Origin: Aeropyrum camini SY1 = JCM 12091
Lineage (GTDB): Archaea > Thermoproteota > Thermoprotei_A > Sulfolobales > Acidilobaceae
DNA: 64,000 nt
Reading direction: 5' to 3'
Assembly: GCF_000591035.1 (NCBI RefSeq)
Contig: NC_022521.1
Span: forward strand, 1,240,001 to 1,304,000
A program made the position numbers and the translations under genes. This document shows positions 33,420-36,937 of this stretch, piece after piece; the stretch's first letter is position 1; every line of letters starts with the position of its first letter. Under the pieces are notes generated by a model, which searched no databases, was not told the DNA's origin, and saw only the letters and a list, made by a program, of their open reading frames with translations.

Positions 33420-34598
33420 ATGGGGTTTATTGAGTCTGATGTTGCTGTGGTGTATGGTAGGATAGTGGAGGGGTTTAGGGCTCCCTACAAGGAGGACCTC
33501 TACTTCAAGACAGTGGTTGTTCCGGGGTTCAGCGACGGCCACATGCACACGCAGGTGGTCGATGCTGGGCTTGCGCCCTCGAGGGTTTGGAGCAACAGTT
33601 ATGAGTGGCTCGAGACAAGGCTCCTCAGGGTTGACGAGGCTGCTGTTAGAAGCGATCTAGACCTCTCCTCCAGGCTGGCGGCAGCCGCCTTCTCCAGATC
33701 CCTGCTCGAGGGGGCGACGCTCGTGGCCGCAACTGGCAGGCTCTCCGCCAACGTCAGGGGGTGGCTAAGCCTGCCCGCCAGGCCGCGGGCTATCTTCCTA
33801 CCCACTGTTATGGACAGGGCTGGCTGGCCGAGCGTTGGTGAGGTGGAGGTTGAGATAGAGAGGCTGGAGGGACTGCTTAGAGATGGTTTGGCTAAGATAG
33901 GCGTTTTCGTCCATAGCCTGGGAACCGCCAGGCCGGAGAGCATTAGAAGGGCGCTTCAGGCCGCGGCCAGGAGGAGGAGGAGTATAGTGGGTATGCATCT
34001 AAGCGAGGGGGTCCCCGAGTCTGGGAGGCTCGTGGAAGTACTGGGCAGAGGGCCCTACCCGGCTAGGATAGTTGCGGTGCACTGCATGGAGGTCGAGGAC
34101 CTCCCCACAGGTGTCAGGTGTATCTCCTGCCCGGCGTCGAACCAGATACTCTACCGCAGGACGAGGCCAACGCTAGAGGGGGTCGACGGCTTCGGCAGCG
34201 ACTGGCCGCTTCTCATAGGAACGGTGGCCAGGCATCTGCCACTCATCAACAGGCTGTACCCTGGCAGGCTGCAGGAGATACTCTACAAGGCTACTATAGG
34301 CGGCTACAGGGCGTATCTCGCCCTGCACGACGGCGACTTCGCTGCTTACGACGCCGGCCTAGAGGACATCTTAGCGGGGAGGGCCCTCCCCGTTTGGGTG
34401 TCGGTGGCGGGGAGGCCAGCTGTGGTTGAAGGCCGCCTAGCCGGCTCCGGCTACAGCTACCCTGAGGTCCTCACCAGGATCAGGGAGCTGATCAGGGAGG
34501 CGCTAGAGAAGTACGGCGACGGCTCCAAGCCCTACGTGCCGGATATAGAGGGTGTGTACGAGGCTAGTCTAGCTCCAGAGGGAGGCCCTCGCTCCTGA
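33420..34598 (+). CDS. Amidohydrolase-superfamily metal-dependent hydrolase
   Basis: 392 residues. The metal site is seen as VPGFSDGHMHTQ (HxH), VGMHLSEG (His), IVAVHCME (His) and FGSDWPLL (Asp), in the order of the ATZ/TRZ deaminase group. The barrel segment is flanked by short strand-rich ends (VAVVYGRIVEGF; VWVSVAGRPAVVEGRL). Deamination of a purine or another ring compound is the likely reaction; the substrate is unknown. ATG start. The 3' end overlaps the convergent small gene by 35 bases. Confidence 0.82.
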   Translation: MGFIESDVAVVYGRIVEGFRAPYKEDLYFKTVVVPGFSDGHMHTQVVDAGLAPSRVWSNSYEWLETRLLRVDEAAVRSDLDLSSRLAAAAFSRSLLEGATLVAATGRLSANVRGWLSLPARPRAIFLPTVMDRAGWPSVGEVEVEIERLEGLLRDGLAKIGVFVHSLGTARPESIRRALQAAARRRRSIVGMHLSEGVPESGRLVEVLGRGPYPARIVAVHCMEVEDLPTGVRCISCPASNQILYRRTRPTLEGVDGFGSDWPLLIGTVARHLPLINRLYPGRLQEILYKATIGGYRAYLALHDGDFAAYDAGLEDILAGRALPVWVSVAGRPAVVEGRLAGSGYSYPEVLTRIRELIREALEKYGDGSKPYVPDIEGVYEASLAPEGGPRS

Positions 34599-34866
34599 GG
34601 GCCAGGAACACCGCCTCGGCGAGCTCCACTATCCTGCTGCTATCCCTCGAAGACACCTCCACAACAATCTCCCCCGGCTCCAGAGACCCCCCGCCCAGGG
34701 GCATCTTGAGCCTAACGCTAGCCTTGACCAGGCTATCACTCCTGCAGGATGCAAGCAGCCAAGTGGGGGCTCTGAAGCCCGGGCTACAGCCATAGTCACC
34801 CAGCACCCCGTATATTATGTCGAGCGTCTTCTCCACAACATCAAGACTCTTGAGGACAGCCCTCAT
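34564..34866 (-). CDS. Small hypothetical protein next to the CARF-PIN gene
   Basis: From the ATG at 34866 the product has about 100 residues (MRAVLKSLDVVEKTLDIIYG). A longer open frame reaches 35007, but its first residues would run into the upstream gene and look non-coding. The pattern is helix, strand (VKASVRLKMPLG), strand (GEIVVEVSSRDS), helix (RIVELAEAVFLALRSE), as in small ferredoxin-like or Pcc1-like folds. I cannot assign it. It follows the CARF-PIN gene by about 100 bases on the same strand. Confidence 0.5.
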   Translation of the reverse strand: MRAVLKSLDVVEKTLDIIYGVLGDYGCSPGFRAPTWLLASCRSDSLVKASVRLKMPLGGGSLEPGEIVVEVSSRDSSRIVELAEAVFLALRSEGLPLELD

Positions 34867-34966: not shown

Positions 34967-36436
34967 CTATCCGGCCTCGAGGCCCAGGAACCTCCTAACG
35001 GCCCCAAGGGGCGGCTTAACCCTCTTCAAACCGCCACTCCCATCCTCGGCCTCGATCTTGACAGGCCCCGACACGCCGGCCTCAGCCAGCAGCGCGAGCG
35101 CTATCATACCCTGGTAGAGGGAGTAGTAGGGCCTAGCCAGGGTAGCGGGCTCCGAGGGGTCCACCCTGAGGTCGAGCTCCACGCTGTGGGGTTCGAAGCT
35201 AGCCTGGACTATGTCGTGGGATATCCTGCTTATCGGGTGCCCCCTCCAGAACTTGTACGCCCCGCTGTCGCCAGTGGCCAGAGTTTTCCCCTCGAGCAGC
35301 GTCAGGTCTATCCTGGTTATCCCCACGTCGCAGGGGGGAGGGCCGCTTGGTATTATGCTGGCGCCCGAGGCAAGCAGGTCCTGGAGGGCGAGGTAGGCTA
35401 AGACGTCTGCAACCGCGCTTGAGCTGCTCGGCCCGCCTCTCTTCACGGCGTTAGCCACCCTCTTCTGCACCTCGAGGACTGCGCACTCGGGTATGTAGAC
35501 CTTGAGGCCTTCTAGGGCGTTGTTGTGTATGCCGAAGTAGATTAGGTTGGTATCTATAATAACCCCTGCACCTAACGCGCCGTCTACACCCCGAAGCCTC
35601 GCTGCCCCCATCCACGCTGGCAGTTGAACAAGGGCTTCGCCCCTCCTGTCAGCCAGGCCTGCGGCGAGTCTAGCGACTCTTGCAGCAGAGTTAGCGACGT
35701 CCTGGGGGTGGCAAAGCCTAAGCCTGATGGACTCCAGGCCGTCGACCTCAATCCTGGCCACACCGCACTCCGCCCTGAGAGGAGGCCCCGCCACGCTGAA
35801 CGCCTGCACACTGTTGAGGCGGCGCGCGAGCTCTGCAACGCTGCAGCGTAGAGGCGGTAGATCGCCTCCCCACGGCGTCTCGCACTCCCTATCCCTCGAG
35901 GTTAGGTCGGGGAACCTGCTGGCCACACTCCCACGCCCGCCCACAGTCCCCACAACGCTGTGCATAAGGATAATCGGCTCCAGCCTACGAGGCACATACG
36001 GGTATATGAGCCCCGTCCAGGGGCCCCAGTAGAAGTGTACATGGGCGACGTCGAGCCTGCACCCCGCAGAGACGCTGGCCAGCGCCGTGCTAGCCGCAAG
36101 CCTCCTCCCCGCGCTGGATATAACCACGACACCCTCCTCCCCGCAGAACTTCTCCCTGAAAATCCTCCTGAGGACCTCGGGGAGCGTCCTCTCCCCCTGG
36201 ACTTCGGGGATGGCGTGGCTGCTGAGGTCCTCGATGCTCACGTCAACCCTCAGATGCTGCTCGACAAGGCTTCTAACCCTCCGGGCGGCATCCCGGGCGC
36301 CGACATGTATCAGAGTCGCGGAGTCGAACCCCCGCTCCTCCCATATCCTAGAGGCGGCCGTCAACGCAGCCTCAACATTACCAGCCCCCCTGCTCACCGG
36401 GAGTATAAGCCTCACTCTACACCACCACCGGGCCAT
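34967..36436 (-). CDS. CARF-like sensor domain fused to a PIN nuclease domain
   Basis: 489 residues in three parts. Residues about 7-165 have a Rossmann-like pattern with features of CARF domains: VRLILPVSRGAGNVEAAL at 8-25, SATLIHVGARDAARRV at 39-53, and VVVISSAGRRLAASTALA at 103-120, which resembles the ligand-binding S-G-G-x-R/K loop. Residues about 290-410 form a PIN domain with acidic residues D295 (IIDTNLIYF), E317 or E322 (IPECAVLEVQ), D370 (CDVGITRID) and D390 (LATGDSGAYKFW). A C-terminal part of about 80 residues is unassigned. No cas gene or CRISPR array lies in the window. The PIN call is firm; the CARF call is by pattern only. Confidence 0.7.
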   Translation of the reverse strand: MARWWCRVRLILPVSRGAGNVEAALTAASRIWEERGFDSATLIHVGARDAARRVRSLVEQHLRVDVSIEDLSSHAIPEVQGERTLPEVLRRIFREKFCGEEGVVVISSAGRRLAASTALASVSAGCRLDVAHVHFYWGPWTGLIYPYVPRRLEPIILMHSVVGTVGGRGSVASRFPDLTSRDRECETPWGGDLPPLRCSVAELARRLNSVQAFSVAGPPLRAECGVARIEVDGLESIRLRLCHPQDVANSAARVARLAAGLADRRGEALVQLPAWMGAARLRGVDGALGAGVIIDTNLIYFGIHNNALEGLKVYIPECAVLEVQKRVANAVKRGGPSSSSAVADVLAYLALQDLLASGASIIPSGPPPCDVGITRIDLTLLEGKTLATGDSGAYKFWRGHPISRISHDIVQASFEPHSVELDLRVDPSEPATLARPYYSLYQGMIALALLAEAGVSGPVKIEAEDGSGGLKRVKPPLGAVRRFLGLEAG

Positions 36437-36784: not shown

Positions 36785-36937
36785 CAACTCCCGAATAAGG
36801 TAATACCCTGGGGAAAGAAAACATTGGGATATGCGCCCGTGATCTAGCCCAACGGGGGAGGACCTAGACGTGCAGCCGTGTAGGAGGAGTACCTGGGGGG
36901 TGTGGGTGTGTTTCAACTCTCCCCAGAGGTAATACCC
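36785..36937 (+). repeat. Direct repeat pair CAACTC-N8-GGTAATACCC
   Basis: The pattern occurs at 36785-36808 and 36914-36937, 129 bases apart. The outer six and ten bases are identical and the eight bases between them differ. Conserved ends around a variable middle suggest a protein-binding site or paired RNA elements rather than a simple duplication. Confidence 0.5.

Follow-up and report, generated by a model that had tools for sequence, protein, structure and literature searches.

A CARF-PIN protein of Aeropyrum camini, a probable ligand-gated ribonuclease in a genome without a detectable Cas10

A 2014 paper described two CARF families associated with PIN (PMC4012209). The fusion of a CARF domain to a PIN nuclease is not new: PADLOC already lists it as CARF_m3/CARF_PIN (PDLC01984, PDLC01983) and as CARF_m12/CARF_PIN (PDLC01979). 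The classification of CARF proteins to which CARF_m3/CARF_PIN is ascribed is reportedly that of Makarova et al. 2020. The CARF-HEPN ribonucleases Csx1 and Csm6 follow the same logic of an RNase gated by a CARF domain, but they carry a HEPN nuclease where the CARF-PIN protein has PIN. The ring nuclease Crn1 (Sso2081), which degrades cA4, and Csa3, which regulates transcription, share the CARF domain fold and possess no PIN domain. Cas10 is, to our knowledge, the only maker of the cyclic oligoadenylate signal for effectors of the CARF-PIN kind. The CARF-PIN architecture has been catalogued yet remains biochemically unstudied as far as the literature we searched shows, where no paper on the biochemistry of the family was found.

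Aeropyrum camini encodes a member of the CARF_m3/CARF_PIN family within the window, the whole stretch of 64,000 bases analysed here, which corresponds to positions 1240001–1304000 of a 1,595,994-base genome (single contig, 99.95% complete). The gene occupies 34967–36436 of the window on the minus strand, with an ATG at 36436, 489 codons and a stop codon at 34967–34969; all features of the protein given below lie on the same strand. An alternative start is a GTG at codon 8 (36413–36415), which is ATG in the sister Aeropyrum genome and coincides with the start position of the CARF-PIN proteins in several relatives. The open reading frame is real and not a product of chance, as a second finished Aeropyrum genome (G004; 1,669,696 bases) holds a syntenic ortholog with 86% identity. 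We propose, with a probability of roughly 0.7, that the protein is a ligand-gated type III ancillary RNase of the CARF_m3/CARF_PIN family that outlived its Cas10 in Aeropyrum. The architecture and the family are known; what is odd is that such an effector is kept in an archaeon without a detectable maker of its signal.

Whole-length similarity to the PADLOC profile PDLC01984 (E = 5.7e-216, 716 bits; residues 9–478 against positions 2–433 of 433) places the protein in CARF_m3/CARF_PIN from end to end and shows that its architecture has already been catalogued; domain order, PIN acids and the FGPW/YPY.PR signature are likewise those of the family. Three further PADLOC models combining CARF and PIN match more weakly, Pfam and NCBIfam contain no matching model, and a phmmer search of PDB sequences returned nothing relevant. 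With a profile of the CARF-PIN family, the CARF part reaches the ring nuclease Sso2081 among PDB sequences at no better than a sub-threshold E of 0.36. A pattern scan found no viral homologs, and the fold search gave no significant viral match. The preliminary description of this DNA had read the protein as a CARF-like sensor fused to a PIN nuclease, and this fusion is borne out by the profile match as well as by structure prediction, fold search and conservation of the catalytic residues.

An AlphaFold2 model computed from the window protein and nine relatives (pLDDT 85.9, pTM 0.88) predicts an N-terminal domain of alternating strands and helices, a middle region and then a PIN-like order of elements. 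The CARF-like sensor domain (residues 8–159; 35960–36415; pLDDT about 85–95 over most of its length) has predicted strands at residues 8–14, 39–44, 65–70, 101–105, 128–133 and 155–159, and Foldseek matches it to SiRe_0806, Cad1, Cam1, Sso2081 (Crn1) and Csa3. The five best PDB fold matches are all chains of SiRe_0806 from Sulfolobus islandicus, either apo or with cA4 (E from 5e-9 to 9e-8), and are followed by Cad1, Crn1, Cam1, Csa3, Can2 and Csm6; some Rossmann-fold epimerases occur among the lower matches, at lower probability. The N-terminal fold, for which another Rossmann family had been the alternative considered at the outset, is thus matched first by CARF proteins and ring nucleases. 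SiRe_0806 (PDB 9JXW, 9JXX with cA4) also ranks first when the match is taken across the entire protein, at E = 5e-9 and with a target-normalised TM score of 0.47–0.54. It shares 12% identity with the CARF-PIN protein and is not found by sequence profiles; neither profiles of its Sulfolobales relatives nor the literature searched identify its second domain. From the similarity to SiRe_0806 bound to cA4, we infer that the CARF-PIN protein binds a cyclic oligoadenylate.

The SSAGRR loop (residues 107–112; 36101–36118) follows the fourth strand and precedes the fourth helix of the predicted sheet, and we regard it as a putative ligand-pocket motif by analogy with other CARF proteins. S107, R111 and A114 are invariant in nine closer homologs, and the loop is more variable in the wider family. 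The preliminary description had pointed out SSAGRRLAAS as a loop resembling those of CARF domains; S107 and R111 are not invariant in the wider family. Another conserved segment, the family signature HVHFYWGPWTGLIYPYVPRRLEP (residues 132–154; 35975–36043), lies between the fifth and sixth strands. Its residues F135, W140, Y145, P146 and P149 are nearly invariant in 26 CARF_m3 proteins, with or without type III, and the conservation of the first four is equal in type-III-free and type III genomes. The middle region (residues 160–289; 35570–35959) is modelled with a helix at 195–210, a hairpin at 226–240 and a second helix at 244–265; N208, located in the first of these helices, is invariant in 36 of 36 homologs.

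The PIN nuclease domain spans residues 290–413 (35198–35569). A separate model of residues 284–489 (pLDDT 78) matches the solved structures 5f4h, 3ix7, 1v8p, 2fe1 and 2mdt, which we take to be PIN-domain proteins, so that structure prediction and fold search assign both ends of the protein as originally suggested, the N-terminal domain to CARF proteins and this part to PIN proteins. The acidic tetrad is intact and is built from D295 (motif 1; 35552–35554; end of strand 291–294), E322 (motif 2; 35471–35473; in helix 317–332), D370 (motif 3; 35327–35329; start of helix 369–375) and D390 (motif 4; 35267–35269; after strand 385–388). Relative to the predicted secondary structure, all four occupy canonical PIN positions, and they are always acidic: the first and the last are D and the second is E in each of 36 homologs, with D or E at the third. 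The preliminary description had offered E317 or E322 as the second acid; E317 is variable among the aligned homologs, which leaves E322 in this role, and the remainder of the proposed active site is upheld.

The surroundings of the gene are those of housekeeping functions, with a riboflavin kinase, a queuosine precursor transporter and a radical SAM protein among its flanks on both sides, and the two genes upstream read as glycine dehydrogenase subunits. A scan of the window detects no array, and the matches to Cas1, Csx1 and type I-A proteins all fall outside it, in agreement with the initial remark that the 64 kb hold neither a CRISPR array nor a cas gene. Two imperfect 24-base direct repeats (36785–36808 and 36914–36937; 75% alike, 129 bases apart) sit upstream of the CARF-PIN gene, in a gap of 720 bases, and do not constitute a CRISPR array. 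Gene order around the CARF-PIN gene is the same in the second finished Aeropyrum genome; in nearly every other relative the neighbours differ, and the gene thus has no conserved partner. Within the genus it has also moved, since in another Aeropyrum genome (G005, L058:9266–10834) it is found between genes that in A. camini flank the second type I-A locus.

A small gene located downstream on the minus strand is real and probably spans 34564–34866, encoding about 100 amino acids rather than the 147 of the longer open reading frame. It has no match in Pfam or among antitoxin families, and it is under strong selection (dN/dS 0.05 against the second finished genome). PIN domains are known as the toxins of VapBC pairs, and the small gene follows the CARF-PIN gene in the same orientation, which together with this selection would suit a toxin-antitoxin-like pair in which the small protein restrains the PIN domain. 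We consider such a pair very improbable: when the neighbourhoods of relatives are compared, the small gene adjoins CARF-PIN in no genome other than the syntenic Aeropyrum pair, and no antitoxin family matches it. The partnership with the small gene that had been suggested earlier was dropped for the same lack of conserved neighbours.

Genomes other than that of A. camini reveal a link between the CARF-PIN family and type III loci. Of 126 high-quality genomes of the class, 70 have type III genes and 56 do not; CARF_m3-PIN is present in 25 of the former and in 9 of the latter (Fisher P = 0.016, or P = 0.09 with four weak matches dropped, related genomes not being independent). Put the other way, type III genes occur in 25 of the 34 genomes that carry CARF_m3-PIN and in 45 of the 92 that do not. 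CARF-PIN and Cas10 share a contig in 19 cases, and in six of these they are within 20 kb of each other, where 0.6 would be expected and none of 200,000 simulations reaches six; the 19 pairs include two CARF_m12 cases and one weak match and, again, come from genomes that are not independent. Two relatives, G051 and G047, have a CRISPR array at a distance of 1–3 kb from CARF-PIN.

These likenesses suggest how the protein could work. The N-terminal CARF-like domain would pair with that of another protein copy. Its ligand would be a cyclic oligoadenylate, and the analogy with SiRe_0806, the best structural match, makes cA4 the most likely one. Binding of the ligand may rearrange the C-terminal PIN domains, whose four acids, holding a divalent metal, would then cut a substrate that is presumably RNA, thereby slowing or arresting the infected cell as a putative defence. 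In relatives with type III CRISPR, CARF-PIN would assist Cas10 as an ancillary effector. In the Aeropyrum lineage, the type III complex may be gone or visit now and then, with CARF-PIN maintained by selection beside two type I-A systems.

Such type I-A systems account for both sites at which Cas1 is found in the A. camini genome. The two loci carry Cas3, Cas5a, Cas7a, Cas8a and Cas11a, with arrays in which a simple scan counts 34 and 19 repeats, and they have three genes of the Csa3/CARF3 type between them. An intact Csx1-like CARF-HEPN gene (L127:16635–18080, genome about 742634–744079, plus strand; 482 amino acids, RNFIAH motif) is located beside the first type I-A array. A Cas10 elsewhere in the genome, which the preliminary description had thought worth seeking, was detected neither by the Pfam palm model PF22335 nor by a profile of 16 crenarchaeal Cas10 sequences, and searches for type III RAMP subunits and Crn1 likewise found none in A. 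camini. The Cas10 and RAMP searches are informative, because all 63 genomes of the class with a Cas10 match also have RAMP matches (63/63). Another conceivable source of the ligand, mCpol, alone or as part of an mCpol/CARF two-gene system, was rejected, as its model PF18182 finds nothing in the A. camini genome. With Cas10, RAMP, Crn1 and mCpol all undetected, this archaeon offers no known origin for the usual ligand, which counts against the reading that we prefer. This is also where the A. camini protein departs from its CARF_m3/CARF_PIN kin: its genome contains no detectable type III system. The sister genome also lacks detectable Cas10 and RAMPs, but encodes a ring nuclease of the Crn1 type (PF09651; L130, G004:C1:1430641–1431054).

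Since neither finished Aeropyrum genome has a detectable Cas10, CARF-PIN is kept there without it, unless each genome lost Cas10 very recently. The extreme form of the latter case, in which a recent loss has left the effector itself to decay, could be argued from other parts of the pathway. A second Csx1-like gene of A. camini (L191:9806–11230, genome about 280805–282229, plus strand) is broken into three pieces by a stop and changes of frame, and the Crn1 of the sister genome has no counterpart in A. camini; together these suggest that pathway components are decaying elsewhere in the A. camini genome. CARF-PIN itself shows no such erosion. It is intact in both Aeropyrum species and is under purifying selection in both halves: compared with its ortholog (pS 0.49, pN 0.08), dN/dS is 0.11 overall, 0.11 for the CARF domain, 0.12 for the middle region, 0.07 for PIN and 0.13 for the C-terminus, like neighbouring housekeeping genes (0.02–0.17). 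This selection disfavours decay of CARF-PIN, and we consider the effector improbable as a relic.

Purifying selection in two finished genomes without Cas10 leads to a further possibility, namely that an unrecognised enzyme makes a nucleotide, cyclic or linear, to which the CARF domain responds, and that PIN acts in a Cas10-independent pathway. The equal conservation of the CARF signature in genomes with and without type III points the same way, as does the retention in A. camini of the intact Csx1-like gene and three Csa3-type CARF genes. Earlier papers already report Csa3 from genomes that lack Cas10, its ligand being left open (PMC8699464, PMC8844856). However, the searches for Cas10 and mCpol gave no candidate synthase, and the retention can also be explained if type III was lost recently or is regained from time to time. 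We therefore hold this reading to be tentative and rather unlikely, with host stress, type I-A signalling or another defence synthase as similarly tentative origins of such a ligand.

Such regain could take the form of type III systems that come and go in Aeropyrum populations through plasmids or recombination, so that the effector pays whenever a Cas10 is present. One of six genus-level genomes indeed combines Cas10, CARF-PIN, the Csx1-like protein and Crn1, and of these four only CARF-PIN is found in all six. Nevertheless, the remaining five genomes, including the two finished ones, have no detectable Cas10, and no plasmid-borne case was seen, which makes this supply of the signal somewhat more doubtful still than a ligand from another enzyme. 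For the ancillary RNase that we prefer, the candidate explanations of its ligand supply in Aeropyrum are an unrecognised synthase, intermittent type III and slow decay after loss.

We speculate, as an unlikely but consequential case, that Aeropyrum possesses an unrecognised enzyme whose product, a cyclic oligonucleotide or some other nucleotide, activates the PIN ribonuclease independently of Cas10. If true, the same signalling would perhaps also activate the Csx1-like protein and Csa3, and would couple type I-A immunity or stress to RNA degradation. A finished genome with CARF-PIN, a Csx1-like RNase, three Csa3 proteins and no detectable Cas10 is a clean test case, provided by nature, for whether CARF proteins can be driven by second messengers from a source other than Cas10, a question that the two papers cited above raise for Csa3.

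Beyond Aeropyrum, homologs of CARF-PIN are found in 20 of 60 relatives and, by profile, in 49 of the 126 high-quality genomes of the class, where they split into two PADLOC families, CARF_m3, to which the window protein belongs, and CARF_m12. The latter has the same layout of a CARF-like domain and PIN with the same tetrad, but is longer and lacks the FGPW signature. It was seen in one order-level family of genomes, an assignment based on a PADLOC scan of one member and on sequence features shared by the others. Ten of the 15 high-quality genomes of this order-level family, several of them single-contig, have neither Cas10 nor RAMPs. In CARF_m12-PIN, the second of the two CARF-PIN families, the tie to type III is largely absent. 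Finally, the CARF-PIN genes of two relatives (G057, L069:8573–10240; G017, L055:4235–5751) are seemingly split or frame-disrupted, and both of these genomes have type III.
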